Below are positions 12,793 through 33,124 of a DNA stretch of 64,000 bases, one piece after another; the stretch's first letter is position 1, and every line of letters starts with the position of its first letter. This stretch comes from Hoeflea algicola (GTDB lineage Bacteria > Pseudomonadota > Alphaproteobacteria > Rhizobiales > Rhizobiaceae), in the NCBI RefSeq assembly GCF_026619415.1, contig NZ_JAOVZR010000001.1:2898501-2962500 (forward strand), given 5' to 3'. A model generated the notes under the pieces. The model made no database searches. It saw nothing but the letters and a program-made list of their open reading frames with translations, and was not told the origin of the DNA. Position numbers and translations under genes: made by a program.

Positions 12793-12812
12793 TGGCGGAG
12801 AGGGTGGGATTC
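12793..12812. repeat. Distal att repeat (copy of the tRNA-Ser 3' end)
   Basis: This 20-bp stretch is identical to the last 20 bases of the tRNA-Ser gene at 33035-33054. The sequences on either side differ, so the match is a bounded direct repeat. It marks the far end of the integrated island, where the chromosomal sequence formerly following the tRNA resumes. Confidence 0.88.
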
Positions 12813-13303: not shown

Positions 13304-13705
13304 ATGGCCGACGTATTCACCAAAGCAAAAAGATCCGACATCATGTCCCGCATAGCGGGCAAGAATACCAAGCCCGAACTTAGCGTCCGATCTGCTCTCC
13401 ATTGTGCCGGCTATCGTTTTCGCCTCCATAGGAAAGACCTTCCAGGAAAGCCTGACCTAATTCTCCCGAAACACCGGGTCGCTGTTTTTGTCCATGGTTG
13501 CTTTTGGCACGGCCATTGTTGCAAACGCGGGAAGCGCCCTACTACCAACGAAGCGTTCTGGACGGAGAAGCTCGACAGAAACCTCAAACGGGACGAAACC
13601 AACGTGGAAGCCCTTGAGAAGCTCGGCTGGACGGTCTGGATAATCTGGGAATGCGAGATAGCGGCCGGAACAGATCGCCTACTGGCCTACCTACGCGCAA
13701 AGTGA
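13304..13705 (+). CDS. vsr: Very short patch repair endonuclease
   Basis: The 133-residue protein is a Vsr-type nicking endonuclease that starts repair of T:G mismatches arising from deamination of 5-methylcytosine. It begins MADVFTKAKRSDIMSRI, the usual Vsr N-terminus. It keeps the catalytic aspartate in KPDLILP (residue 51) and the histidines in VHGCFWHGHCC (64 and 69), plus the zinc cysteines. An ATG two codons earlier (13298) is also possible; MADVF fits the family better. It stands 131 bp before the cytosine methyltransferase gene, the usual partner. Confidence 0.95.
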   Translation: MADVFTKAKRSDIMSRIAGKNTKPELSVRSALHCAGYRFRLHRKDLPGKPDLILPKHRVAVFVHGCFWHGHCCKRGKRPTTNEAFWTEKLDRNLKRDETNVEALEKLGWTVWIIWECEIAAGTDRLLAYLRAK

Positions 13706-13836
13706 GAGGATCACACCGTTCGAATCGTACCCAACGGGCGTTGCAAATTGTGACAAATTCTGTGGCTCTTCCTTTGGACTTTAACGATTAAACCAATTAC
13801 GCAGAAGAAGCATATTATCACCAATGAAGAGCTTAC

Positions 13837-14976
13837 ATGATCAGCAGCCAACCCAGACCAGTTAAAGTAGTAGACGTCTTCGCTGGAGCTGGCGGCCTTT
13901 CGCTTGCTGCTAAACAGGCCGGAATGGATGTCGTATTCGCCGTTGAGTTGGACAGATGGGCTGCTGAAACGTATCGATTGAACTTTTGCAAGGAAGGCGA
14001 TCCAGATTCACCTACCCTCTATGAAGCGGACATCGCAAATCTATGTCCGGATGAACTGCGAGAAAAGCATTTTGGCGACAACGGGAATTGCGACATTCTG
14101 CTTGGCGGACCTCCCTGCCAAGGTTTTTCAACTCATCGAATAAAGAATGCAGGTATCAAGGATCCGAGAAACAAATTGATCCACCGCTACTTCGAATTTG
14201 TTCGCGCCTTGCGACCGAAGGTGTTCGTTATGGAAAATGTGCCGGGGATTCTCTGGGAGCGGCACTGCGAGTATCTTGAGCAATTCTATGAGGAAGGCAG
14301 GCGCGAGGGGTATCATATGTATGACCCCGTCGTATTAGATGCGCGTGATTTCGGACTGCCGCAGCGAAGAAAGAGGGTTTTTGTTCTGGGTGTTGAACAA
14401 AACGTTGACAGAGGCTCTTTTGCCTGGCCGCCTCCTCCAACACATGGCTCTGAAAAATTGCGACAGGAAAATCCCGACCTACTTCCCTGGGTACCATGTC
14501 AAAGAGTTTTCGGTCCGGTGAAAGCGGGTGACCCCAACAATGTTCATATGCAGCACTCTGAGGCGCTGACTGAGGTCTTCGCCAGAACTCCGCACAATGG
14601 TGGAAGTCGGAGAGATTCCGGCCGCACTTTGCCGTGCCATGAAAAACACAATGGCCATAAGGATGTCTACGGCCGAATCGACCCCAGCCAGCCGGCACCG
14701 ACAATGACAACGGCTTGCATCAATCCTTCGAAGGGGCGTTTCGTACACCCACGCGAAAACCATGGAATTACTGCACGGCAGGCGGCACGGATTCAGACTT
14801 TTCCGGATAATTTCCAATTTGCCGGCGGCTTAATGGCCGCGGGGAAGCAAATTGGGAACGCTGTACCGGTCAAACTTGGCGAGGTAATATTACGGCAAAT
14901 GTCGGCATTGCTGTCCAGTGAGACCGGCCTTCCGTTGGAGCTCAATCAAGTCGATGGCGAAGTGCGGTTCGCATGA
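13837..14976 (+). CDS. dcm: DNA (cytosine-5-)-methyltransferase
   Basis: The 379-residue protein has the C5-methyltransferase motifs in order. Motif I is VVDVFAGAGGLSLAA (SAM binding) and motif IV is GGPPCQGFS, with the catalytic cysteine at residue 94. Motif VI is MENVPGIL, motif VIII is LPQRRKRVFVLGV and motif X is IGNAVP near the C-terminus. The target recognition region lies between about residues 240 and 300, and its specificity cannot be read. The stop codon overlaps the start of the downstream ATPase (ATGA), so the two are co-translated. No separate restriction endonuclease gene follows. Confidence 0.95.
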   Translation: MISSQPRPVKVVDVFAGAGGLSLAAKQAGMDVVFAVELDRWAAETYRLNFCKEGDPDSPTLYEADIANLCPDELREKHFGDNGNCDILLGGPPCQGFSTHRIKNAGIKDPRNKLIHRYFEFVRALRPKVFVMENVPGILWERHCEYLEQFYEEGRREGYHMYDPVVLDARDFGLPQRRKRVFVLGVEQNVDRGSFAWPPPPTHGSEKLRQENPDLLPWVPCQRVFGPVKAGDPNNVHMQHSEALTEVFARTPHNGGSRRDSGRTLPCHEKHNGHKDVYGRIDPSQPAPTMTTACINPSKGRFVHPRENHGITARQAARIQTFPDNFQFAGGLMAAGKQIGNAVPVKLGEVILRQMSALLSSETGLPLELNQVDGEVRFA

Positions 14977-17942
14977 TAAATTCAGTGGCCTTCCAAACGC
15001 GCGCCCGAACAGTCGACCATCTTGGCCGGGAACAAATAGCGGACTGTCCCACTGCGATTTCCGAGCTTTGGAAGAACGCTTATGATGCATATGCGCGCAA
15101 CGTGAGCCTTCACATCTTCGACGATCAGGAACCGGTTGCGGCCATTTTCGACGATGGTCATGGCATGAGCTACGATGAATTTGTCAACCGATGGCTTGTC
15201 GTCGGAACGGATTCAAAATTCGATAAGAGCATAGCAGATCAGGCTGACCGCGATGGCCTGCCCAAGCGAACCAAACAAGGCCAAAAAGGCATTGGCCGTC
15301 TTTCCTCGGCAAATCTTGGCCCGCTTCTTTTGGTCGTGAGCAAAAGAAGGAATGAGGACTTCGTTGCTGCCCTGATCGACTGGCGCATTTTTGAAAACCC
15401 CTACCTTGTTCTATCAGACATCGAAGTTCCGGTTACGCAGTTCGGACAAAAGGATGAACTTTTCCATCTCTTGCCTGAAATGTTCGACCGGCTAACGGAC
15501 AACATTTGGGGCAGCTCGCGGGATACGGAGCGGGCACAGCGTTTGAAACTCGCTTGGGAAACTTATGATCGTGTAACTTTGGAAGGCAATCCGGATGCAG
15601 AAGAGCCTTCCAAACTCATTGCAAGTACGATCATCAATGCACGTTTCGAGGAACGGCATTTTGAACCTTGGCTGATCTGGAAGGGCGACCGGGAACACGG
15701 AACCGCTTTGATAGTGTCTGACATCAACTATGATCTTAGAGCACAACTACCTTCGGTACAGCCAGATGCTAATGTAACCGGCATTCGGGAGTCGTTTTTC
15801 GCGACGCTATCTGCCTTTACGGATCCATACGTCGATCCTGGTGCCACCGAATACAATTCTTTTGATCCCGAGTTTTCGTATGAGGTCAAGACTTGGAACG
15901 GTCGCGGCGCAAAGGTTGTAATTGAAGACGATCGCCAAACTATCAATCGTTCTATTACGGAAGAAATGGAGCATGTTCTCTCAGGCAATATTGACGCAGA
16001 TGGCGTGTTCCGAGGCCAAATAAAGGCCTTCGGAGAGTGGCGAAAGCTTGGCGCAGATTATGAAATACGACCACCAGCGGATTTCAAGATGCCGAGTGGT
16101 CCAACAACATTTGTCGGTCCATTTAGTTTGCATGTTGCTACTTTTGAAATCAGTCGCTCGAATTCTACTTTGTCGGACGCAGAGCACTCCTATTTCTTGG
16201 ATCTTGGTCAATCGTACAGCGGTTTCTTGGTGTTTAGAAATGGACTACGGGTATTGCCTTATGGCCGAATTGATAATGACTTCTTCCAGATTGAAACTCG
16301 TCGCAGCATCAATGCTGGCCGAGAATTTTGGAACGCCCGAAGAATGTTTGGTCGGGTAGCAATCTCTCGTGAGAGGAACCCCAATCTCCGGGACAAGGCT
16401 GGCCGAGAAGGTTTTATTGATAATCGCAGCGCGAAGGCTTTGCGGACGTTAGTTCAGCACATTTTACGGCGAGCTGCATATGATTTTTTTGGCAGTTCAT
16501 CCGATCTTCGCAAAACGGTACTGCCCGATATTCAAGCTCGGAATTTGCGAGAGAAAGCAGATGCTGAGCGCAAAGAACTCGCCAAAAAGAATGCTCGTAA
16601 ATTCAGAGCCCAGCTCAGGAACAACCTGCCTCAACTGTCAAAATTGATTGAAAGCACAAGCCAGCTGCCGTCAGAATTATCAATTGAGGATCAGCAGGGG
16701 CTTGAGGATGCCCAAGTGTTGATCAACGATTTGAGCGAGCAGCTAAGTGACCTAAGACTCACAGCTGCACCAACAAAACTTGGCTCCGCTGAAGACGACT
16801 ATCGAGCCTATCGGACCATGTATGTTGAAATGCAGGAACGCATAAGATCACTAGAAGAGACGCGCGCGGAAGCCATCGAGAAAATAAATCCGGCTAGACC
16901 TGATGAAGTTGCCCAGAGACAGCTGAACAGCTATGCCAGTCGTCTTCATGGTCGTCTCAAGTCATGGCGCAAGGCCATCGACGAACTCCAGGGCTCCGAG
17001 CGAGATCGAGTCAGCGCCTTGTTTGATGAGCGAAACAAAGCATTCCATGCCTTAGCACTTCCGCTTGTTGATCAAGTTCGAATGGGGCGACTTGGGCTTG
17101 ATGATGCGTTGCAACACATGAAGGTGCTGCAAATCAAACTCGACACGGAAAATGAAGACACCTTCCAGTCCTACTTGGATGCCTTGGAGGTGATGAGCGA
17201 GAACATCAACATCGAGTTGATCGCCCGACAAGGAATGGCGGAAAATGTAGAACTCCGCGACGATCTGAACCGCCTCAATCAGGTGGCCCAGCTGGGAGTA
17301 ACCGTCGAGATTTTGGGACATGAGCTTAACAGCAACGAACGTATGATTCGTGAAGGCATCCGGCAGATTCGGGCTGCGGGGGACGTGCCGGGTACCCGTC
17401 TGGTCCAAGAAGGGTTTGAGGCCCTTAGCCAGCAGCTCGATTTCCTTTCGCCATTGAAAGTTTCCGGAAGCCGGACGCGTCGGCTAATCACCGGCGAAGA
17501 AATCGTGGACTATCTTGCACGTTTCTTCGAAACCGTAGCTAACAATAGAGAGATCAGGATAAGTGCTTCGAGCGATTTTAAGGCATTTTCCATTGAGGAA
17601 CAGCCTTCCAGGCTTCTGCCGGTCTTCGTGAATTTGGTGAACAACAGTGTCTATTGGCTCGTCAATTCTCTTACAGCAAATCCCGAGGTGTTACTTTCAG
17701 TGCAAGATGGAAAGGTCATTGTTTCCGACAATGGGCCTGGGATCGATCCGCTTGATCAGGAAAGCCTCTTCAAGATGTTTTTCACGCGGAAATCCAGTGG
17801 CGGACGAGGGATTGGATTGTATCTTTGCCGCGTCAATCTAATGGCAGGTGGGCATTCGATTGAGTATGCGAGCGAACGGAAGCATCGCGTACTTTCAGGA
17901 GCAAATTTCTTGATTGATTTTAGGGGAGCAAGATTTGCCTGA
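14973..17942 (+). CDS. Dual GHKL ATPase / histidine kinase-like protein (MORC/MutL-type N-terminus)
   Basis: The 989-residue protein has two Bergerat-fold ATPase modules. The N-terminal one shows ISELWKNAYDAY (E31, N35), IFDDGHGMS (residues 59-66) and GQKGIGRLSSANLG (103-116), as in Hsp90/MutL/MORC proteins. A charged, probably coiled-coil region covers about 530-760. The C-terminal module is like a histidine kinase: GHELN with a candidate phosphoacceptor His at about 783, N-box NLVNNS at 887, DNGPGID at 919 and GRGIGL at 944. The gene is coupled to dcm upstream and overlaps a receiver-type gene downstream by eight bases. MORC-like ATPases in restriction-modification operons are known, so a role in defence or DNA surveillance is likely. 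Confidence 0.85.
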   Translation: MINSVAFQTRARTVDHLGREQIADCPTAISELWKNAYDAYARNVSLHIFDDQEPVAAIFDDGHGMSYDEFVNRWLVVGTDSKFDKSIADQADRDGLPKRTKQGQKGIGRLSSANLGPLLLVVSKRRNEDFVAALIDWRIFENPYLVLSDIEVPVTQFGQKDELFHLLPEMFDRLTDNIWGSSRDTERAQRLKLAWETYDRVTLEGNPDAEEPSKLIASTIINARFEERHFEPWLIWKGDREHGTALIVSDINYDLRAQLPSVQPDANVTGIRESFFATLSAFTDPYVDPGATEYNSFDPEFSYEVKTWNGRGAKVVIEDDRQTINRSITEEMEHVLSGNIDADGVFRGQIKAFGEWRKLGADYEIRPPADFKMPSGPTTFVGPFSLHVATFEISRSNSTLSDAEHSYFLDLGQSYSGFLVFRNGLRVLPYGRIDNDFFQIETRRSINAGREFWNARRMFGRVAISRERNPNLRDKAGREGFIDNRSAKALRTLVQHILRRAAYDFFGSSSDLRKTVLPDIQARNLREKADAERKELAKKNARKFRAQLRNNLPQLSKLIESTSQLPSELSIEDQQGLEDAQVLINDLSEQLSDLRLTAAPTKLGSAEDDYRAYRTMYVEMQERIRSLEETRAEAIEKINPARPDEVAQRQLNSYASRLHGRLKSWRKAIDELQGSERDRVSALFDERNKAFHALALPLVDQVRMGRLGLDDALQHMKVLQIKLDTENEDTFQSYLDALEVMSENINIELIARQGMAENVELRDDLNRLNQVAQLGVTVEILGHELNSNERMIREGIRQIRAAGDVPGTRLVQEGFEALSQQLDFLSPLKVSGSRTRRLITGEEIVDYLARFFETVANNREIRISASSDFKAFSIEEQPSRLLPVFVNLVNNSVYWLVNSLTANPEVLLSVQDGKVIVSDNGPGIDPLDQESLFKMFFTRKSSGGRGIGLYLCRVNLMAGGHSIEYASERKHRVLSGANFLIDFRGARFA

Positions 17943-19810
17943 CCCAGCTTCTTTTTCCGATTTGGTCCGTGAGGCCTTTATTGATCCGCTGCGCTCGGTT
18001 TTGATCGTCGACGATCAGTATCCAACCTGGGAAGAGATACTTAACTCAAAGATAGAGGCTGGCGCAAAGAACGACGCTTTGGATGCGCGCTCGGAAAAAA
18101 AGAGTGGACCACGCAACCAAACGGGCCTTTGAAAGTAATCAAAGAATTCCGCAACAAGAAACCCGGTTTCGTAATTGATATTCACGATGCGCTTGCGCCT
18201 TCCCCTGCTGCGATTGCGGCAGGTACCAAGCCGCAAGAAAGCCCATCAGAACTCGCCGACCACTTGCATCAATCAGACCTTCTGGTACTCGATTACAATC
18301 TGGAAGGCCCTGGAGGGTTAAGAGGCAAAAAAGCGAGGGAAATCCTTCGCATGGTTCTTTCGAACAACCACTTTAATTTGATCATTGTTCATACCGGTGA
18401 GGATGATCTGGACGAGGTGATGGCGGAGTGCCTGCTTTCCCTAATGCAGAGCTGCACCTCGCAATTCGATGGAAAATTGCTTGCTGAGCTAAAGTTACTG
18501 GATGACATATTGGACGAAATGGGAGACGAAGAAGAATTTGACCGGAATCACCTGAGCAATATTTTTTCAACCCAAGAGTATCTTGAAGTACGCCAGAAAG
18601 ACGCTTTGGGAATAGCTAGTTTCATGCGAGGTGAGGGGCGGCTTGCGCCACTTCAAAAGTGGGGAAAGGATCTTGGATTAAAAGGGGGAAGCTAAAGACC
18701 TTTCTATATTGGGCAATTCGTGAATTTGAGAAAACTAAACTTTCAGAATTCACTGAAGCCCCGCCTGAAGGGCTTAAATGGAAAGATCGAGGTGGGTGCA
18801 AGTGGTTGCGCAGCTCGAAAGGTTTCGTGACATTTGTGGAGAAAGGTCCTGATGACTTGCTTGGAGAGATGCAAAAAGCTCTCGAAGACTGGCAGCCTAC
18901 GCCTTCCCGATTACTCTCCGCCAAATATCGGCACGAGCTTAGTAGCATGGGTGTCGAGGCTGAAGATAAATCTCTCGTAAAGACACATGTTTTTGCGCAG
19001 TTCTATGACAGCATTCTGGAGCCCGCCCGGGAAGGAGTTCCTCCTCCGCAAGCAGCGCTATCAAGAGAATTCAAACTGAAAGAACATGTCTCAAGACAAT
19101 CTGAGGCAATCTCTTTTCTGATTACGGACGAAATCGTGGCATTCGGCGAGCGCATCATCGAGGCTGATGAAGCCAGCGGCAGAACTTTCGCTTCCCATTA
19201 CGGTATCGATCTATCCGATGGGAAAATCAAGAAATCTGCAGTCGATCAATTCAATAGTTATGTATCAACTTTGCCAATGAAGCCAGGCTCTGACCAGCTG
19301 GACAGTGGACACATTTTTAAACTTGGCAATGACTGGTGGGTTTGCGCCACACCTGCTTGTGATCTGCAACCCGGTCAGAATACGATTGCCTTTACCGGTT
19401 CGAGCAATGAACTGCGCCCGTTCACAGCACTGCAACTGCTTCCAATAAAGCCCGAAGAGCTGGAAAATGACCACATAAACAGCGGCTCCTGTTGCTTCGT
19501 TCACGATCAAAATACTGGGAAGGTCATCTGTCTCGGCCTTCGCTCGATCCCGGACGAAAAGAAGCCTGCTACGCAGAAGGTAACTTGGCGAACGTTCCTA
19601 GCGAAGGATCAAGGATTAATTTCGGACGGTATTTGCAAAATTGTTCAGCTCAAACTTACCGACTCGACCGTTGAAATGCCTGAGTTTAAAGGAACAGTAA
19701 TTGCAAAACTCCGATACGAGTATGCGCTCAATTATATTCAGAGAGTTGGGGCCAGTGTTTCAAGGATTGGACTTGGATATGCGGCATACCCTTCCGGAGA
19801 TGCGGTTTGA
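17935..19810 (+). CDS. Receiver-domain protein, coded in three frames (two -1 shifts)
   Basis: Three overlapping frames form one protein of about 620 residues. The first (TTG start at 17935 with an aggggag site) gives the receiver beginning SVLIVDDQYP. The second (18102-18695) continues with DLLVLDYNLEG, which holds the candidate phosphoacceptor Asp, and IIVHTGED. The third (18686-19810) has a C-terminal region of unknown function with WLRSSKGFVTFVEKG. The joins lie at an A7 run (18095-18101) and at AAAAGGGGGA (18680-18689). Both need -1 shifts. The gene overlaps the kinase-like gene, so it is the likely phosphotransfer partner. It may be expressed by frameshifting, be split, be inactivated, or reflect homopolymer sequence errors. 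Confidence 0.65.
18096..18102 (+). other. Slippery heptamer A AAA AAG in the receiver gene
   Basis: In the incoming frame the codons are gaa aaa aag, giving the exact A-AAA-AAG heptamer used for -1 frameshifting in dnaX and many insertion sequences. A -1 slip joins SEKK to EWTTQPNG and then KVIKEF, which restores the receiver domain. The unshifted frame ends at 18132. No strong downstream hairpin is obvious. Confidence 0.5.
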
Positions 19811-20963: not shown

Positions 20964-21800
20964 GGGGCTGTTGACGTTCGGGATTCCCAAATCACCTGAC
21001 TTCTGATTCAAGGTTGCAAACGGAGGAGAGCAACCTTGACCCGAAGAGTCCTATCCAATTCGCAATGGGCGATCATCGAACCTTACTGCCTGGGTAAAAC
21101 CACCGATCCCGGACAAACCGGACGTGACCCACGGCTTTTCGTGGAGGCAGTCCTCTGGATCGTCCGCACGGGCGCGCAATGGCGTGAATTGCCCGCTGAG
21201 TTTGGCAAATGGAATTCTGTATTCAAGCGGTTCCGCAGATGGGTCAAAGCGGATGCTTTCTATAGTATGTTCAAAGCATTAGCCTCAGACGCCGATCTGG
21301 AATACGCAATGATCGACGGTACTATCGTCAAGGTTCATCGCTCAGGACAAGGCGCAAAAGGGGGACTCTTTGCCAGGCCATTGGACGCTCTCGGGGGGCA
21401 TAACGTCGAAGATACTGGCTCTGACGGATGCGCTCGGTAATCTCGTCGATTTCTGTCTGATGCCAGGCCAAGCTCATGATCTGCGCGAGACCGATGCGTT
21501 GATCAGCGGCTTGTCCGCCGGATATTTGCTGGCGGACAGGGCCTTTGACGCGGATTGGCTGCGCAATGGCCTGCTGGATCGCGGCATAACCCCGGTCATA
21601 CCGCCAAAATCCAACCGGAGGTTCCCGGCAGAGTTCGACAAGGAAACCTACAAATGGCGGCATTTGATCGAAAACTACTTTGGCAAACTGCAGGAAAACA
21701 GAGGGATAGCAATGCGCTCTTGCAAAACCGACCAGAGTTTCAAAGCCTTCATCTCAATTGCCGCAACGCTCATTCACACACGGTAAACGTCAACAGCCCC
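20964..21800 (+). mobile_element. IS5-family insertion sequence (IS427-like), complete
   Basis: The 837-bp element has perfect 15-bp inverted repeats, ggggctgttgacgtt at 20964-20978 and its complement at 21786-21800. It is flanked by TA on both sides, consistent with the 2-bp TA duplication of this group. It carries a transposase in two overlapping frames. Confidence 0.88.
21036..21786 (+). CDS. IS5-family transposase, two frames joined by -1 shift
   Basis: The first frame starts at TTG 21036 after a ggaggag site and gives MTRRVLSNSQWAIIEPYCLG through HRSGQGAKGG. The second frame supplies TLCQAIGRSRGGITSKI and the C-terminus with YLLADRAFDADWL. It ends RWRHLIENYFGKLQENRGIAM-like (KWRHLIENYFGKL) before the stop at 21786. 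The join that restores the family sequence GAKGGTLCQAIGRSRGG is a -1 step at AAAAGGGGGA (21356-21365). Two-frame transposases with programmed shifting are normal for this IS group. The DDE aspartates in AMIDGTIVK and LLADRAFDAD and the glutamate in LIENYF are visible. Confidence 0.85.
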
Positions 21801-23344: not shown

Positions 23345-23354
23345 TCAGGGCGCC
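23145..23354. repeat. 21-bp periodic GAATCG repeats, array B (10 units)
   Basis: Ten consecutive 21-bp units start at 23145, 23166, 23187, 23208, 23229, 23250, 23271, 23292, 23313 and 23334. Six start exactly with GAATCG and the others with close variants (GCAACG, GAAACT, GAAACG, GTAACG). The rest of each unit is variable. The last unit overlaps the stop codon of the M41 peptidase gene. Twenty-one bp is two helical turns, so the sites face the same side of the DNA, as in iteron arrays. Confidence 0.75.
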
Positions 23355-24121
23355 GGCTTTTCTAGGCCCGTTGCGGCTACGTTCATTTCCTGAGCAAGCA
23401 ACGCTCTGACTTCGCTACCATCAAGGGTCCTTGCCTCAGCAAGACGGGTTGCCAGTGACAGGAGCGCATCGCGATGCTGCGATAGCATTTCGACGGCCAT
23501 GGTCTCTGCGACCTCAAGCCTTGCATGGACATGATGCGCCAACTGGCGATCGAGCGAAAGGATCGATGAGTGATCCTTCACTGAACGGTACAATAGCGGC
23601 TGGGTTGTCCCGAATCCGAGATTGGCCTCTGCATCTGTCGCCAGCCTCGTGGCATGTGCAAGATCAGACGTGTCATTGCCACCGGAGCCTACAACATGAT
23701 CACCAAAAATGAGCTTTTCCGCGGCCCTGCCAGCGAGCGTACAGGCGATCATCTGATTGAGCCATGTTTCAGTCTGAATGACATTTTTGCGCATCTGACT
23801 TTCGACATAGCCACCGGAGCCATTGCCGACCGTTACGGTTGAAACGGTTGCGATATCAAAAGCGGTCCATGCAAATGCATGCCCAGCTTCGTGAACTGCA
23901 ATTCGCCAGACAAGCTCTGGTGACATTGCCGACTGGCCAGCAGTAAGCGCTGCATGAATGTCACTGTAATACAGCGATCGCTTCTCCCGACGGGCCTTCT
24001 GACGTGCTTCACGGATCAGCCGTTCGATGTCTGCACCTGTCCTGCCGGCGGCAGCCAGCGCCAAGGGCTGGAGCGCTGGGTTCAAATCGGGTGCTGCGGC
24101 GGAGATATGAGACTTATCCAT
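23345..24121 (-). CDS. M41 (FtsH-like) zinc peptidase, separate subunit
   Basis: The 258-residue protein is the proteolytic half of an FtsH-type protease. Residues 20-60 (LALAAAGRTGADIERLIREA) match the end of the FtsH AAA lid. The zinc motif VHEAGH follows at residues 77-81, then GSGGNDTSDLAHATRLA with the third zinc ligand region, and LGFG. The ATG overlaps the end of the AAA+ ATPase gene by eight bases and has an aaggag site inside that gene, so the two are coupled. No membrane segment is present, unlike FtsH. It probably forms a soluble AAA+ protease with its neighbour. Confidence 0.85.
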   Translation of the reverse strand: MDKSHISAAAPDLNPALQPLALAAAGRTGADIERLIREARQKARREKRSLYYSDIHAALTAGQSAMSPELVWRIAVHEAGHAFAWTAFDIATVSTVTVGNGSGGYVESQMRKNVIQTETWLNQMIACTLAGRAAEKLIFGDHVVGSGGNDTSDLAHATRLATDAEANLGFGTTQPLLYRSVKDHSSILSLDRQLAHHVHARLEVAETMAVEMLSQHRDALLSLATRLAEARTLDGSEVRALLAQEMNVAATGLEKPAP

Positions 24122-26120
24122 TGATGAGCACTCCTTCTTTGCTGTCACAGTGTTTATCGCTGCCGTCATGGGCAGTGCTGTCGATGCAGTGGACGCGCAA
24201 AGTACCAGATGCACTTTTGGAACCGGCGGAACTGCCGGTCTCACTGCTGTTAAGGACCGCGTCGAGATCATCTCCCAAATGATGCGCAATGATTTTCGCT
24301 AGCGCAGTCGTATCTGGGGTCGGGATAACAATGTGCTTCTCAAGACGCCCTGAACGCAGAAGAGCAGGGTCGATTTTTTCCGGCCGGTTGGTCGCGCCAA
24401 CGACAATGACGCCTACGGTTTTCGCTGCCCCATCGAGCAATTCGAGCACTCGATTTACGAGGCTCGACCAATAATCGTCGTAAGGTCGGTCACTGCCGCC
24501 GCGATTTCCAATGTTGTCGATCTCGTCGATGAAGAGGATGCAAGGCGCATAGCTATTGGCTTGCTCGAAAGTGGCGTTAATGGCTGCCAGAACATCGCCA
24601 AGATTCGACGCTTCCAGCCATCTCGCCACCGACGTCGCGATCAGTGGCACACCCAGCGTGTTGCAAAGCGCCTTGGCGAAGGTCGTCTTGCCCGTACCGG
24701 GCGGCCCAGAGAGCAGCAGCCGTGAGCTGAGATCGGACCACTCGACTTCCTTGCTCCCGAACGCCTCAAGGTCGATCTTGAGGTCAAGAGCCCAATGCCG
24801 GGCATCGCCATAACCGGCCAACCGTTCAACAAAGAGGCAATCCTTTCCGGATGGTGGTTTGACAGGTTGCTTTGCCTTCTGCCCCCTGGCTGTTTCTGAC
24901 CCGGTCGTTGTCTTGACTGGCTCGATCATGTCGAAGCAGCCAGAGTATTTCTCGCGCTTCCTTGCGTCCGAGCGGCCCGATCTGTTCAGCAACGAACCAA
25001 GCTCGCAATCTTTCTCGTCGTCATCCTTGGCTTCTGCTCGTGCCGCGTTTTCAGCTTCAAGCGTGGTCAGGATTCCGATGATTTTTGTCAGGGATCGACC
25101 TGGGCGGATTGCGATAGCCAGATCATCGATGCCGAGATGGAGCGGCTCGAATTCGAGTTCGCTCATCAGAAACCACGAGCGACCAACAGGGATTTGACAA
25201 CAGATGGCGAGCACATCAGCGATCAGGCTTGCATCAATTCCGTTACCCTGGATCACAATGTCCGCGACGGCAGCAAGACGTGCCGCTAGTGGCTGTTCTC
25301 TCTCATCAGAGATGATCAAAGGCTTGGATGCAGCAAGCACCTTGTTCGACACGAGCCGCCGCATATCATCATGACGATCAAGCCGCTCTAACAAAGCGCT
25401 CCCGCAGCAAGCGAGTGACCTTCGTCGTTTTGAATCCGCCAATGATTTATAGTGCCCTGTGAGGCCTGGGCCATCCGAGATCGGTTCAAGAGATGTGTAG
25501 AATGGCAGAATCAAGCCCTTTTCAAGCATACGGCCGAGCTGTTTTTCAAAACCGTGAACCGGAATCTGCACCGCGATGATCGGGCACTCGGACTTCATGA
25601 CCGCGAGCAGTCGATCGAGGATTTTCTTATCTTTCTCAAAAGCCCTCGCGAGCAATAGGGCTGTCGCGACTTCACGAACGTTCAGCGTGGGCGCAAAGCC
25701 CCCTACAATTGAAAGTACGTGGTCCCGAAGCCTGAGCAACTTCGATGAACTCGGCGTGGTCCCATTTTGATCGACGCGCACTGAACAAACAGGTTTGTCG
25801 ACTTCGCCGACCTCTCCAAACTCCTCATCGTCGAAATCATTGAACTCGCCAGATTCAAGCTTCATTTCGAGCCGTTTCCTGTTGCATGATGACACCTTCA
25901 GGAGGTTCCGCGTCAGGTCCCGATCATGATCAACATCACCCGAGAACTGAGCTGCCTGGTCCGCAGAAAGCCGCCAGACTGTGCCGTCACGCGAGGTTAC
26001 GCCGAGCTGATGCTCTTCAAGAACGCCAGCTTCTGCGGCACGACCAAAAGCTTCGAGCCGGGCAGCGCGGCTTTGGCGGGATAGGAGATACCGAGAAACA
26101 CGTTTGCTGATCTTGCTCAT
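24114..26120 (-). CDS. AAA+ ATPase, FtsH-like core with a long novel N-terminus
   Basis: The 668-residue protein has an FtsH-like AAA core at its C-terminal side. Walker A is GPPGTGKTT at about residue 472 and Walker B is CILFIDEID at 527. The second region of homology is GATNRPEKIDPALLRSGRLE from about 575. The AAA lid is cut short after TPDTTALAKIIAHHLGDDLD and replaced by a polar tail with SETGSSAGSKSASG. The missing lid helices are at the start of the downstream M41 peptidase. The first 400 residues match no domain I know and may select substrates. A gaggagg site precedes ATG 26120. The two proteins should assemble into a protease. Confidence 0.85.
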   Translation of the reverse strand: MSKISKRVSRYLLSRQSRAARLEAFGRAAEAGVLEEHQLGVTSRDGTVWRLSADQAAQFSGDVDHDRDLTRNLLKVSSCNRKRLEMKLESGEFNDFDDEEFGEVGEVDKPVCSVRVDQNGTTPSSSKLLRLRDHVLSIVGGFAPTLNVREVATALLLARAFEKDKKILDRLLAVMKSECPIIAVQIPVHGFEKQLGRMLEKGLILPFYTSLEPISDGPGLTGHYKSLADSKRRRSLACCGSALLERLDRHDDMRRLVSNKVLAASKPLIISDEREQPLAARLAAVADIVIQGNGIDASLIADVLAICCQIPVGRSWFLMSELEFEPLHLGIDDLAIAIRPGRSLTKIIGILTTLEAENAARAEAKDDDEKDCELGSLLNRSGRSDARKREKYSGCFDMIEPVKTTTGSETARGQKAKQPVKPPSGKDCLFVERLAGYGDARHWALDLKIDLEAFGSKEVEWSDLSSRLLLSGPPGTGKTTFAKALCNTLGVPLIATSVARWLEASNLGDVLAAINATFEQANSYAPCILFIDEIDNIGNRGGSDRPYDDYWSSLVNRVLELLDGAAKTVGVIVVGATNRPEKIDPALLRSGRLEKHIVIPTPDTTALAKIIAHHLGDDLDAVLNSSETGSSAGSKSASGTLRVHCIDSTAHDGSDKHCDSKEGVLING

Positions 26121-31087: not shown

Positions 31088-32950
31088 CTATAGGTCTTCG
31101 GGCCGCCGCCGCGTTTTTGCTAGCTGATCAAAATCCAGGTCTCGGAACATCGAAAAATCAATCTTTGGATTGAGCGGCAAAGTAGCGAACATCTCGGCTT
31201 CGGACTCAGTCAGGGTTTTCCATCCGTACTTGTTGTGATCGTCGCCGCCGAGCGCATGCCCTGCCTGCATTCGCCGTTCACGCTCGCCGATCTTCTTGTC
31301 CTCACGTGCCTGGCTAATGTAGTCACCGCGCAGAGAATGAAAGCGTTCGCCTGGCGAATCTTTGATGCCTGCCTTGTCAAAAAGACGTCTCATGTATTTC
31401 GACGCATTTTTCGCGGGATTAGCAAGTTGCATAAGCTGTGGAAACAGGAAGTTGTCGCCCTGCTTTCGGGCCCACTCGACATAGCCGATCTCGACCAGAA
31501 AATTGTGAAGTACAAAATACCGGCCGCTTTCTGTCGTCTTGATTGGTCGTCGGACCCACTTACCTCCGACCATCGCAATCCCTTCCACTTCTGCTACCCA
31601 GATTCCGTCGAACTTCTCCGTGATGTCGGTCCCCACTAGATGCGTGAGCAGACCCAGACGGCGGCTGGTCAGCAAACCAAGCAGAGGCATCATGACATCG
31701 TCGATATACGGCGATTGAACGCCCGTGCGGAAAAGCTGCGTCAGCTTCTTCGCTGACAACGGCTCTGCGGAAACCGCATCCCGGGCAGCCTTGGGGTATT
31801 TAAGCGCAACATTTTTCACTGGGTTGTCGAAATCATGTTGCGTGGCTGCATTGCTGAAGACCGGCTTGATGACACCCATGAAACCATTCTGCAGCGTGTT
31901 CTTCGCAATCGATTTCTTGCTGAAATCCCGATTGCTGTCGATGATCTCTCTAGCTGACAGATGAGACGGTTTATCATTATGTTTGCTCGGCCAGAACTGC
32001 ATCAAATTGATGAAAGCCTGAAGATCGGTCGGCGTGTAGCGATCGATCGGGTGATCGCCAATCAGCTCCACGAATATGTTCAGACGCATCTCGGCAGTCT
32101 TGATGTCGCCGCTGGCCTCTCCCATGGCCGTGACCCGTTGCGCAAGATATTCGCTAGCAGCAATGCTGAACAACGGTTTGTCGGATGGCTCACGTTCTAC
32201 AAATCGCCGATCCTTGTCGACCTCCGTTTTTACCTTCGCATTGACGAGTCCGGCCCGTGCGCTGATCTTGCCCTTGCCTATTGAGCCGCCTCCAAGTGGG
32301 GGCATGAGAAGCGACACTGGATCGTCCTTTGCTCTCTCGACCAAACGCCTTGCGAGCAATTCGGCGTTATCGCCGAGTGCCTTGTTGTAATCTTCACCCG
32401 CATCCTTGCGCGCCTTTTCCTGTGCAATCTGCACAAGCCCGCGCATCATTGCAAAATTGCCTTCCTCTTCGGCTGTTGACGGAGGAGGAGGACTGCTGAT
32501 GTCGTAAAGTGCCGACTTGAGGCTCATGGTCACAGCTTGCCAGGCGCGCTTGCCTTTGGCTTCCTCATCGAGGCCATCAACATCGCCGCCCAACATGTCT
32601 TCCATCAATGGCCAGAAACCGTTCTCATCGTTGTTCGCCTTGGACATGGCAATCTCGATCCGTTCAAACTTTTCACGTGCGATCGTGGCCAGCTTGTCGG
32701 CAATCTTGCGGGCCTGAGGTTTCGGGATGACACCGAGGCCAACCCGGATAGGCCGCTTGACCTCACCGGCGATCGCTTTGGGCAGTCGCATCTGAAACAT
32801 ATAGGCCGAACCCGTTTTGATCAGGTAAAGACCGGGTGAGGAGCGAGGGCGACGTGTCTTGGGCTGATTTGCGGAAATAATTTCCGCGTTTTGGGATGAT
32901 ACCCCCGACGATACAGGCAACGATACAAATTGACTTTCTGACATTGGCAA
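31088..32950 (-). CDS. Tyrosine recombinase / island integrase
   Basis: The 620-residue protein is a phage-type site-specific integrase. The catalytic residues are visible: Arg in LLTSRRLGLLTHL (about 430), His and Arg in FHSLRGDYIS (538, 541), His in MQAGHALGG (565), and the tyrosine nucleophile in DDHNKYGW (575). The N-terminal 400 residues contain an arm/core-binding region with LAQRVTAMGEASG and RLNIFVELIGDHPIDRYT. It starts about 85 bp from the tRNA-Ser 3' end, the target of the island. The N-terminal codons include a copy of the island palindrome, which encodes NAEIISA. The start (32950 or 32944) has no strong binding site and could be further inside. Confidence 0.93.
   Translation of the reverse strand: MPMSESQFVSLPVSSGVSSQNAEIISANQPKTRRPRSSPGLYLIKTGSAYMFQMRLPKAIAGEVKRPIRVGLGVIPKPQARKIADKLATIAREKFERIEIAMSKANNDENGFWPLMEDMLGGDVDGLDEEAKGKRAWQAVTMSLKSALYDISSPPPPSTAEEEGNFAMMRGLVQIAQEKARKDAGEDYNKALGDNAELLARRLVERAKDDPVSLLMPPLGGGSIGKGKISARAGLVNAKVKTEVDKDRRFVEREPSDKPLFSIAASEYLAQRVTAMGEASGDIKTAEMRLNIFVELIGDHPIDRYTPTDLQAFINLMQFWPSKHNDKPSHLSAREIIDSNRDFSKKSIAKNTLQNGFMGVIKPVFSNAATQHDFDNPVKNVALKYPKAARDAVSAEPLSAKKLTQLFRTGVQSPYIDDVMMPLLGLLTSRRLGLLTHLVGTDITEKFDGIWVAEVEGIAMVGGKWVRRPIKTTESGRYFVLHNFLVEIGYVEWARKQGDNFLFPQLMQLANPAKNASKYMRRLFDKAGIKDSPGERFHSLRGDYISQAREDKKIGERERRMQAGHALGGDDHNKYGWKTLTESEAEMFATLPLNPKIDFSMFRDLDFDQLAKTRRRPEDL
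32871..32887. promoter_or_regulatory. Island palindrome, copy 3
   Basis: The 17-bp palindrome gcggaaataatttccgc is repeated here within the annotated 5' end of the integrase gene and about 150 bp from the right att site. If the true integrase start is downstream, this copy would be in its promoter. Confidence 0.6.

Positions 32951-33033: not shown

Positions 33034-33124
<91 letters not shown>

Follow-up and report, generated by a model that had tools for sequence, protein, structure and literature searches.

What is a cytosine DNA methylase doing beside a histidine-kinase-like protein and a receiver? This question is raised by a gene module in a stretch of 64,000 nucleotides from Hoeflea algicola (contig NZ_JAOVZR010000001.1, positions 2,898,501 to 2,962,500 of the forward strand; hereafter the window), in which the genes for a very-short-patch repair endonuclease (Vsr) and a C5-cytosine methylase precede a protein of 989 amino acids (aa) with two GHKL ATPase domains and, after it, a receiver. 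A sequence-only reading had proposed a phosphorelay defence module, an interpretation that is partly supported overall by the analysis described here. With a probability of roughly 0.5, we read the locus as a mobile phosphorelay linked to DNA modification, of the HEF_HK/Response_reg_2 kind, in which the receiver would either be the effector or gate it. The module consists of the following features, the receiver being given as three pieces (ORF, open reading frame):

13304..13705, + strand: vsr, very-short-patch repair endonuclease, 133 aa (PF03852, E 2.9e-33; TIGR00632 above cut-off)
13837..14976, + strand: C5-cytosine DNA methylase, 379 aa (PF00145, E 2.8e-62; TIGR00675 above cut-off)
14973..17942, + strand: double-GHKL kinase-like protein, 989 aa (Pfam; key residues kept in 80 relatives)
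17932-18132, + strand, frame 1: receiver piece 1, an ORF with a possible TTG start at 17935 (PF19192 positions 2-32, below cut-off)
18045..18695, + strand, frame 2: receiver piece 2, with the phospho-acceptor Asp and a helical insert (PF19192 positions 72-147, E 1.3e-16, above cut-off)
18635..19810, + strand, frame 3: receiver piece 3, with the beta5 strand of the receiver and the entire output domain (no Pfam match)

The profile matches bear out the methylase and Vsr of the sequence-only reading, and their genes, directly upstream of the kinase gene, form a C5-methylase or restriction-modification (R-M) neighbourhood. The same reading had the genes running in one direction with overlaps, which is correct for the direction and for the methylase and kinase genes (overlapping by 4 bases) but not for vsr and the methylase, which are separated by a gap of 131 bases. 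Its division of the 989-aa protein into a MORC/MutL-like and a histidine-kinase-like GHKL domain agrees with Pfam, which places HATPase_c_3 at residues 27-137, HEF_HK at 773-829 and HATPase_c at 878-969, all above cut-off, with His783 inside HEF_HK and followed by Glu784. The N-terminal ATPase is MutL-like, and the mutl profile matches the protein weakly. In a profile search of the host genome, PF19191 (HEF_HK) and PF19192 (Response_reg_2) each matched once.

A scan of one genome per species yielded 424 kinase relatives, and the 80 best matches (38-83% identity) were kept; these loci were chosen by kinase similarity, and more distant loci lie outside the description. A receiver gene directly follows the kinase gene in 79 of the 80 loci, an order that is more than chance, the single miss (L071) being a contig of 3.6 kilobases (kb). 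All 79 receivers are encoded on the strand of the kinase, and in 75 of them the first possible start codon leaves no gap between the two genes. A C5-methylase is present within the contiguous block in 73/80 loci and anywhere in the flank examined in 76/80; it lies upstream in 60 of 72 loci and on the same strand in 67 of 72. Response_reg_2 is sparse among genomes, occurring in 8 of 297 from the order and 11 of 398 from the phylum, with the genome of H. algicola itself counted in both.

The residues expected of a phosphorelay are kept throughout this set. His783 is present in 80/80 kinases, with Glu as the next residue in 72 and Asp in 8, and the N-terminal ATPase residues E31, N35, D60, G62, G64, G103, G106 and G108 are each found in 80/80. 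Within the kinase core, N887, N891, D919 and G921 are likewise kept in 80/80, G923 in 79 (one Ser), and G944, G946 and G948 in 79 with one gap; the receivers keep D26, D119 and K306 in 79/79, D27 in 77 and T154 in 76, with Ser in the other 3. The sequence-only reading had made conservation of the predicted His and Asp a condition of its proposal, and both residues are kept among these relatives. The 80-relative alignment also contains a conserved K475-AGREG segment after the GHKL domain, at what may be the position of the S5 Lys of paraMORC proteins. Across the 72 loci with all three genes, the distance correlation was 0.928 between kinase and receiver, 0.417 between kinase and methylase and 0.378 between receiver and methylase. 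None of 999 permutations reached these values (maxima of 0.131, 0.198 and 0.211 in the same order), and because the permutation ignores phylogeny it is the contrast between the correlations that counts. Kinase and receiver behave as one unit, with a partly exchangeable methylase.

The sequence shows a C5-methylase, a double-GHKL protein whose MutL/MORC-like N-terminal ATPase motifs and histidine-kinase core are both intact, and a cognate receiver protein that has an output domain of its own. The module belongs to an already described kind. The two-component-like pair of HEF_HK and Response_reg_2 was reported by Bellieny-Rabelo et al. 2021 (PMC8011034), with C5-methylase and Vsr neighbours and, in the accessible text, without a functional test. 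The same text gives a three-domain kinase, the receiver family, an upstream C5-methylase, a nearby Vsr and a core His followed by Glu or Asp, as in His783-Glu784 and 80/80 of our relatives; the window differs in its broken receiver gene. As far as that text goes, it describes neither the receiver split by a helical insert, nor the output barrel, nor a short sister form, and these, together with the counts of recurrence and conservation and the co-divergence, are what is new here. Searches of the open-licence literature for a functional test listed the 2021 description, and we recognised no phage test of the pair among the papers listed.

The predicted model gives the partner protein a receiver fold, interrupted by a helical insert, and ends its unannotated output domain in a small barrel with an invariant Gly and an invariant Cys-Asp. 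The sequence-only reading had not recognised this C-terminal region, for which our searches gave no convincing relative. The barrel weakly resembles MazF/CcdB in predicted fold only. Kinship with MazF in sequence was looked for and not found: 78 output domains had matches to 11 families at E <= 0.1, none of them the PemK profile PF02452, and hhalign gave 0.2% between the barrel and PemK ORFs (just seven ORFs compared, one of which, L171, seems to be in the wrong frame). No DNA-binding domain was recognised among the Pfam families over the same 78 output domains, and Foldseek found no match in the PDB for the whole receiver model at E <= 0.001.

In the phosphorelay reading, the N-terminal GHKL clamp would register the state of the DNA and the partner methylase would mark self. 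ATP-driven closing of the clamp would lead to autophosphorylation of His783, the phosphate would pass to the receiver Asp (119 in the relatives), and the output barrel would act as, or gate, a restriction-like effector. Several results count against this scheme. Searches by sequence found no convincing solved relative of the whole receiver protein (best E 0.092) or of the output domain alone (best E 1.2), and Foldseek found no match for the output domain in the PDB or among viral models at E <= 0.001. Four of the 80 loci have no C5-methylase in the flank examined, three of these flanks ending at a contig end and that of L072 not, and only a minority of loci have a restriction gene as nearest neighbour; an effector role is thus possible, as is the gating of some other enzyme.

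A bolder form of this reading, which we regard as somewhat doubtful, makes the kinase-receiver pair itself the restriction arm of modification-gated immunity ("phosphorelay restriction"), replacing the restriction enzyme. A methylase of whatever class would mark self, the MORC-like kinase would read unmarked DNA, and phosphorylation of the receiver would switch on a new barrel effector with the invariant Cys-Asp pair. If the pair is the effector arm, bacterial two-component signalling would be joined to restriction-modification, and phosphate transfer would provide a measurable readout for MORC-like ATPases.

A shorter sister form of the pair is found on viral contigs, where a dual-GHKL kinase of about 750 aa is accompanied by a receiver protein of 414-480 aa. 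Three short kinases examined match HATPase_c_3 and HATPase_c but lack a match to HEF_HK, and at E <= 0.05 none of five short receivers matches a Pfam receiver family. Short and long kinases are related (hhalign 100%, E 1.1e-48), and the barrels are homologous (93.1%, E 3.2e-7, 126 columns; reversed control 0.1%), although whole-protein profiles of long and short receivers scored weaker than the barrels alone (88.7% over 41 columns; 77.7% over 39). An N6_N4-type methylase (PF01555, above cut-off) lies directly upstream in 5/5 viral loci with room for it. The short triad also occurs in 1 of 398 genomes of the phylum (L187) and on an Allorhizobium conjugative plasmid (L188; methyltransferase by annotation). 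In 7 of the 8 loci with the short form (L117, L118, L120, L121 and L123 from viruses, the L187 genome and the L188 plasmid) the kinase gene is followed by the receiver gene, the exception, L119, being the same contig as L134.

A second viral scan gave 39 loci, 34 of them with a kinase ORF of at least 650 aa and six on contigs already counted. A loose two-motif pattern marks the next gene as receiver-like in 30 of 32 loci tested (not counting L134, where the next ORF has the opposite orientation); the same pattern was found in 2/31 upstream and 4/26 third genes, against 30/31 downstream genes in that set, which does not include L167. Methylases were the commonest Pfam matches among 88 flanking proteins of the viral loci (Eco57I 14, N6_Mtase 12 and N6_N4 7, with overlap of families on one protein; C5 2). 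The viral contigs L135-L165 carry diverse GHKL kinase-like genes of 680-910 aa followed by receiver-like genes of widely varying length, often flanked by Eco57I-type methylases, and a variant at L125:9995-14268 combines a 796-aa dual-GHKL protein with a 621-aa protein that weakly matches Response_reg. A phage origin of the long form was considered and set aside, the phage collection giving just 3 partial matches, two of them in unannotated fecal records of 5-6 kb; L140 has no near match among the E. coli genomes.

The copy in the window is itself damaged. Its receiver gene is not one ORF but three overlapping pieces in three different frames, which rules out a single intact gene; the overlapping receiver-domain partner of the sequence-only reading is real insofar as Response_reg_2 adjoins the kinase, but it is not one gene. 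In separate searches against the intact Pantoea dispersa receiver, piece 1 matched residues 1-41 (66% identity), piece 2 residues 55-254 (44%) and piece 3 residues 237-628 (47%). The gene is broken in this assembly, by decay or sequencing error. Programmed frameshifting is thought unlikely because relatives carry the receiver as a single ORF, although the 79 receivers were picked as ORFs of more than 450 aa and are not a free test. Since two frame changes interrupt the receiver, the local copy is probably inactive unless both are sequencing errors; intact copies exist elsewhere. That the local copy works, its frame changes being errors of sequencing or assembly, is a less probable but serious alternative: the three pieces keep their identity to the intact relative, the kinase is undamaged, and a second gene of the surrounding island, an AAA/M41 (FtsH-like) gene, is also in two frames, as indel errors would give. 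The accessible text of PMC8011034 mentions a single Pectobacterium genome whose receiver likewise falls into two ORFs, and puts this down to faulty assembly or gene prediction. The second split gene may just as well signal decay of the island, however, and damaged copies in E. coli, through IS1 insertion or an internal stop, also argue for inactivation.

It is rather unlikely that the pair acts as a regulatory two-component system governing how a separate R-M system is expressed or how active it is, without being an effector itself, as proposed in the discussion of PMC8011034. A restriction gene does adjoin the pair in some loci: in the 142 proteins that flank the pair most closely across the 80 loci (one gene on each side), Pfam matched HNH_2 in 8, Mrr_cat in 4, AspBHI_N in 3 and MvaI_BcnI in 2, besides phage integrase in 7 (among the 25 listed of 169 matched families), and PADLOC models of HNH families matched 8 and 7 flanking proteins and those of type II enzymes 5 and 3 (25 of 75 listed). 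E. coli SE15 encodes methylase, kinase and receiver in that order, with an HNH_2 restriction enzyme directly after the receiver. Against regulation stand the output part, with no recognised DNA-binding domain, and three plasmid records in which the core is present and no restriction gene is annotated across some 25 kb (the gene table being incomplete). A restriction gene near the module is frequent, not universal. In the window, Pfam recognised no restriction family in the module pieces or in the part of the island ORFs that was scanned, a search that families unrecognised by Pfam would escape. That the double-GHKL protein takes the part of MutL for the adjoining Vsr in the repair of deaminated 5-methylcytosine, switched by the receiver, is very improbable, for although its ATPase is MutL-like, Vsr is present in the flank examined of 40/80 loci and Vsr cooperates with MutL in E. 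coli (PMC2292703, accessible text), the other half of the loci have no Vsr in that flank and the sister form pairs with N4/N6-type methylases, where deamination of 5-methylcytosine is not at issue.

Whether the pair is an effector arm can be addressed in a standard host, because DNA of the Pantoea allii kinase gene, a relative, matches 214 of 5,426 complete E. coli genomes. All of these matches are chromosomal, and in 205 genomes they cover at least 80%. The SE15 module is part of a tRNA-Leu island that also carries ArdC, MobH and an integrase. In strain GPEC1176, which has a divergent copy, no restriction gene is annotated within the 12.5 kb viewed. The E. coli loci L127 and L128 hold damaged modules, with an internal stop in the methylase, a split kinase, or a receiver or kinase cut by IS1.

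Among other systems, Detocs is reportedly a defensive two-component system of a TPR sensor kinase, a lone receiver and a receiver-phosphorylase effector; it is said to share a kinase and a receiver with the module and to act in phage defence, without a methylase or MORC-like ATPase. The paraMORC ATPases of R-M loci (Iyer et al. 2008, PMC2292703) have an N-terminal GHKL domain and methylase and Vsr neighbours, and the HATPase_c_3 motif residues are intact in 80/80 relatives; the second, kinase-type ATPase, the H box and the receiver partner set the window kinase apart, and the accessible text of that paper mentions neither a receiver nor a response regulator. The BbrUII/HgiDII restriction enzymes (NF050001) match the N-terminal ATPase region (residues 12-136, 61.5 bits, E 5.5e-17), far under the family cut-off of 550 bits, and the rest of the kinase is unrelated. 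PADLOC-DB 2.0.0 gave only weak N-terminal restriction-enzyme matches for the kinase and none for the three receiver pieces at E <= 1. VcSduA, a Shedu-type protein tested in phage defence, has a GHKL ATPase; by the accessible text it is a single protein with a C-terminal nuclease, without a kinase core or receiver (PMC12137116). In a figure legend of the DefensePredictor paper (PMC13092281, accessible part), HATPase and REC appear among the domains given for systems that are predicted but unvalidated, which might include the present pair.

The repeats, transfer RNA (tRNA) and base composition, not an integrase, indicate that the module is borne on a mobile DNA island, at its tRNA-distal end. 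The G+C fraction is 0.519 from 12,793 to 33,054 and 0.607 in the remaining window. A 620-aa ORF beside the tRNA was considered as the island integrase, an assignment that is unsupported by Pfam. The island features are:

12793..12812: 20-base-pair direct repeat, tRNA-distal island end (exact copy of 33035-33054)
33035..33054: 20-base-pair direct repeat inside the 3' end of tRNA-Ser, other island end (exact copy of 12793-12812)
33035..33124, - strand: tRNA-Ser (cga), likely attachment site (ARAGORN)
31088..32950, - strand: 620-aa ORF, tyrosine-recombinase-like by eye only (no Pfam match at E <= 0.01)
23345-26120, - strand: FtsH-like AAA domain and M41 peptidase domain in two overlapping ORFs in different frames, the second split island gene (Pfam)
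21036-21786, + strand: IS4/5-family transposase in two overlapping ORFs (DUF4096, DDE domain; Pfam)
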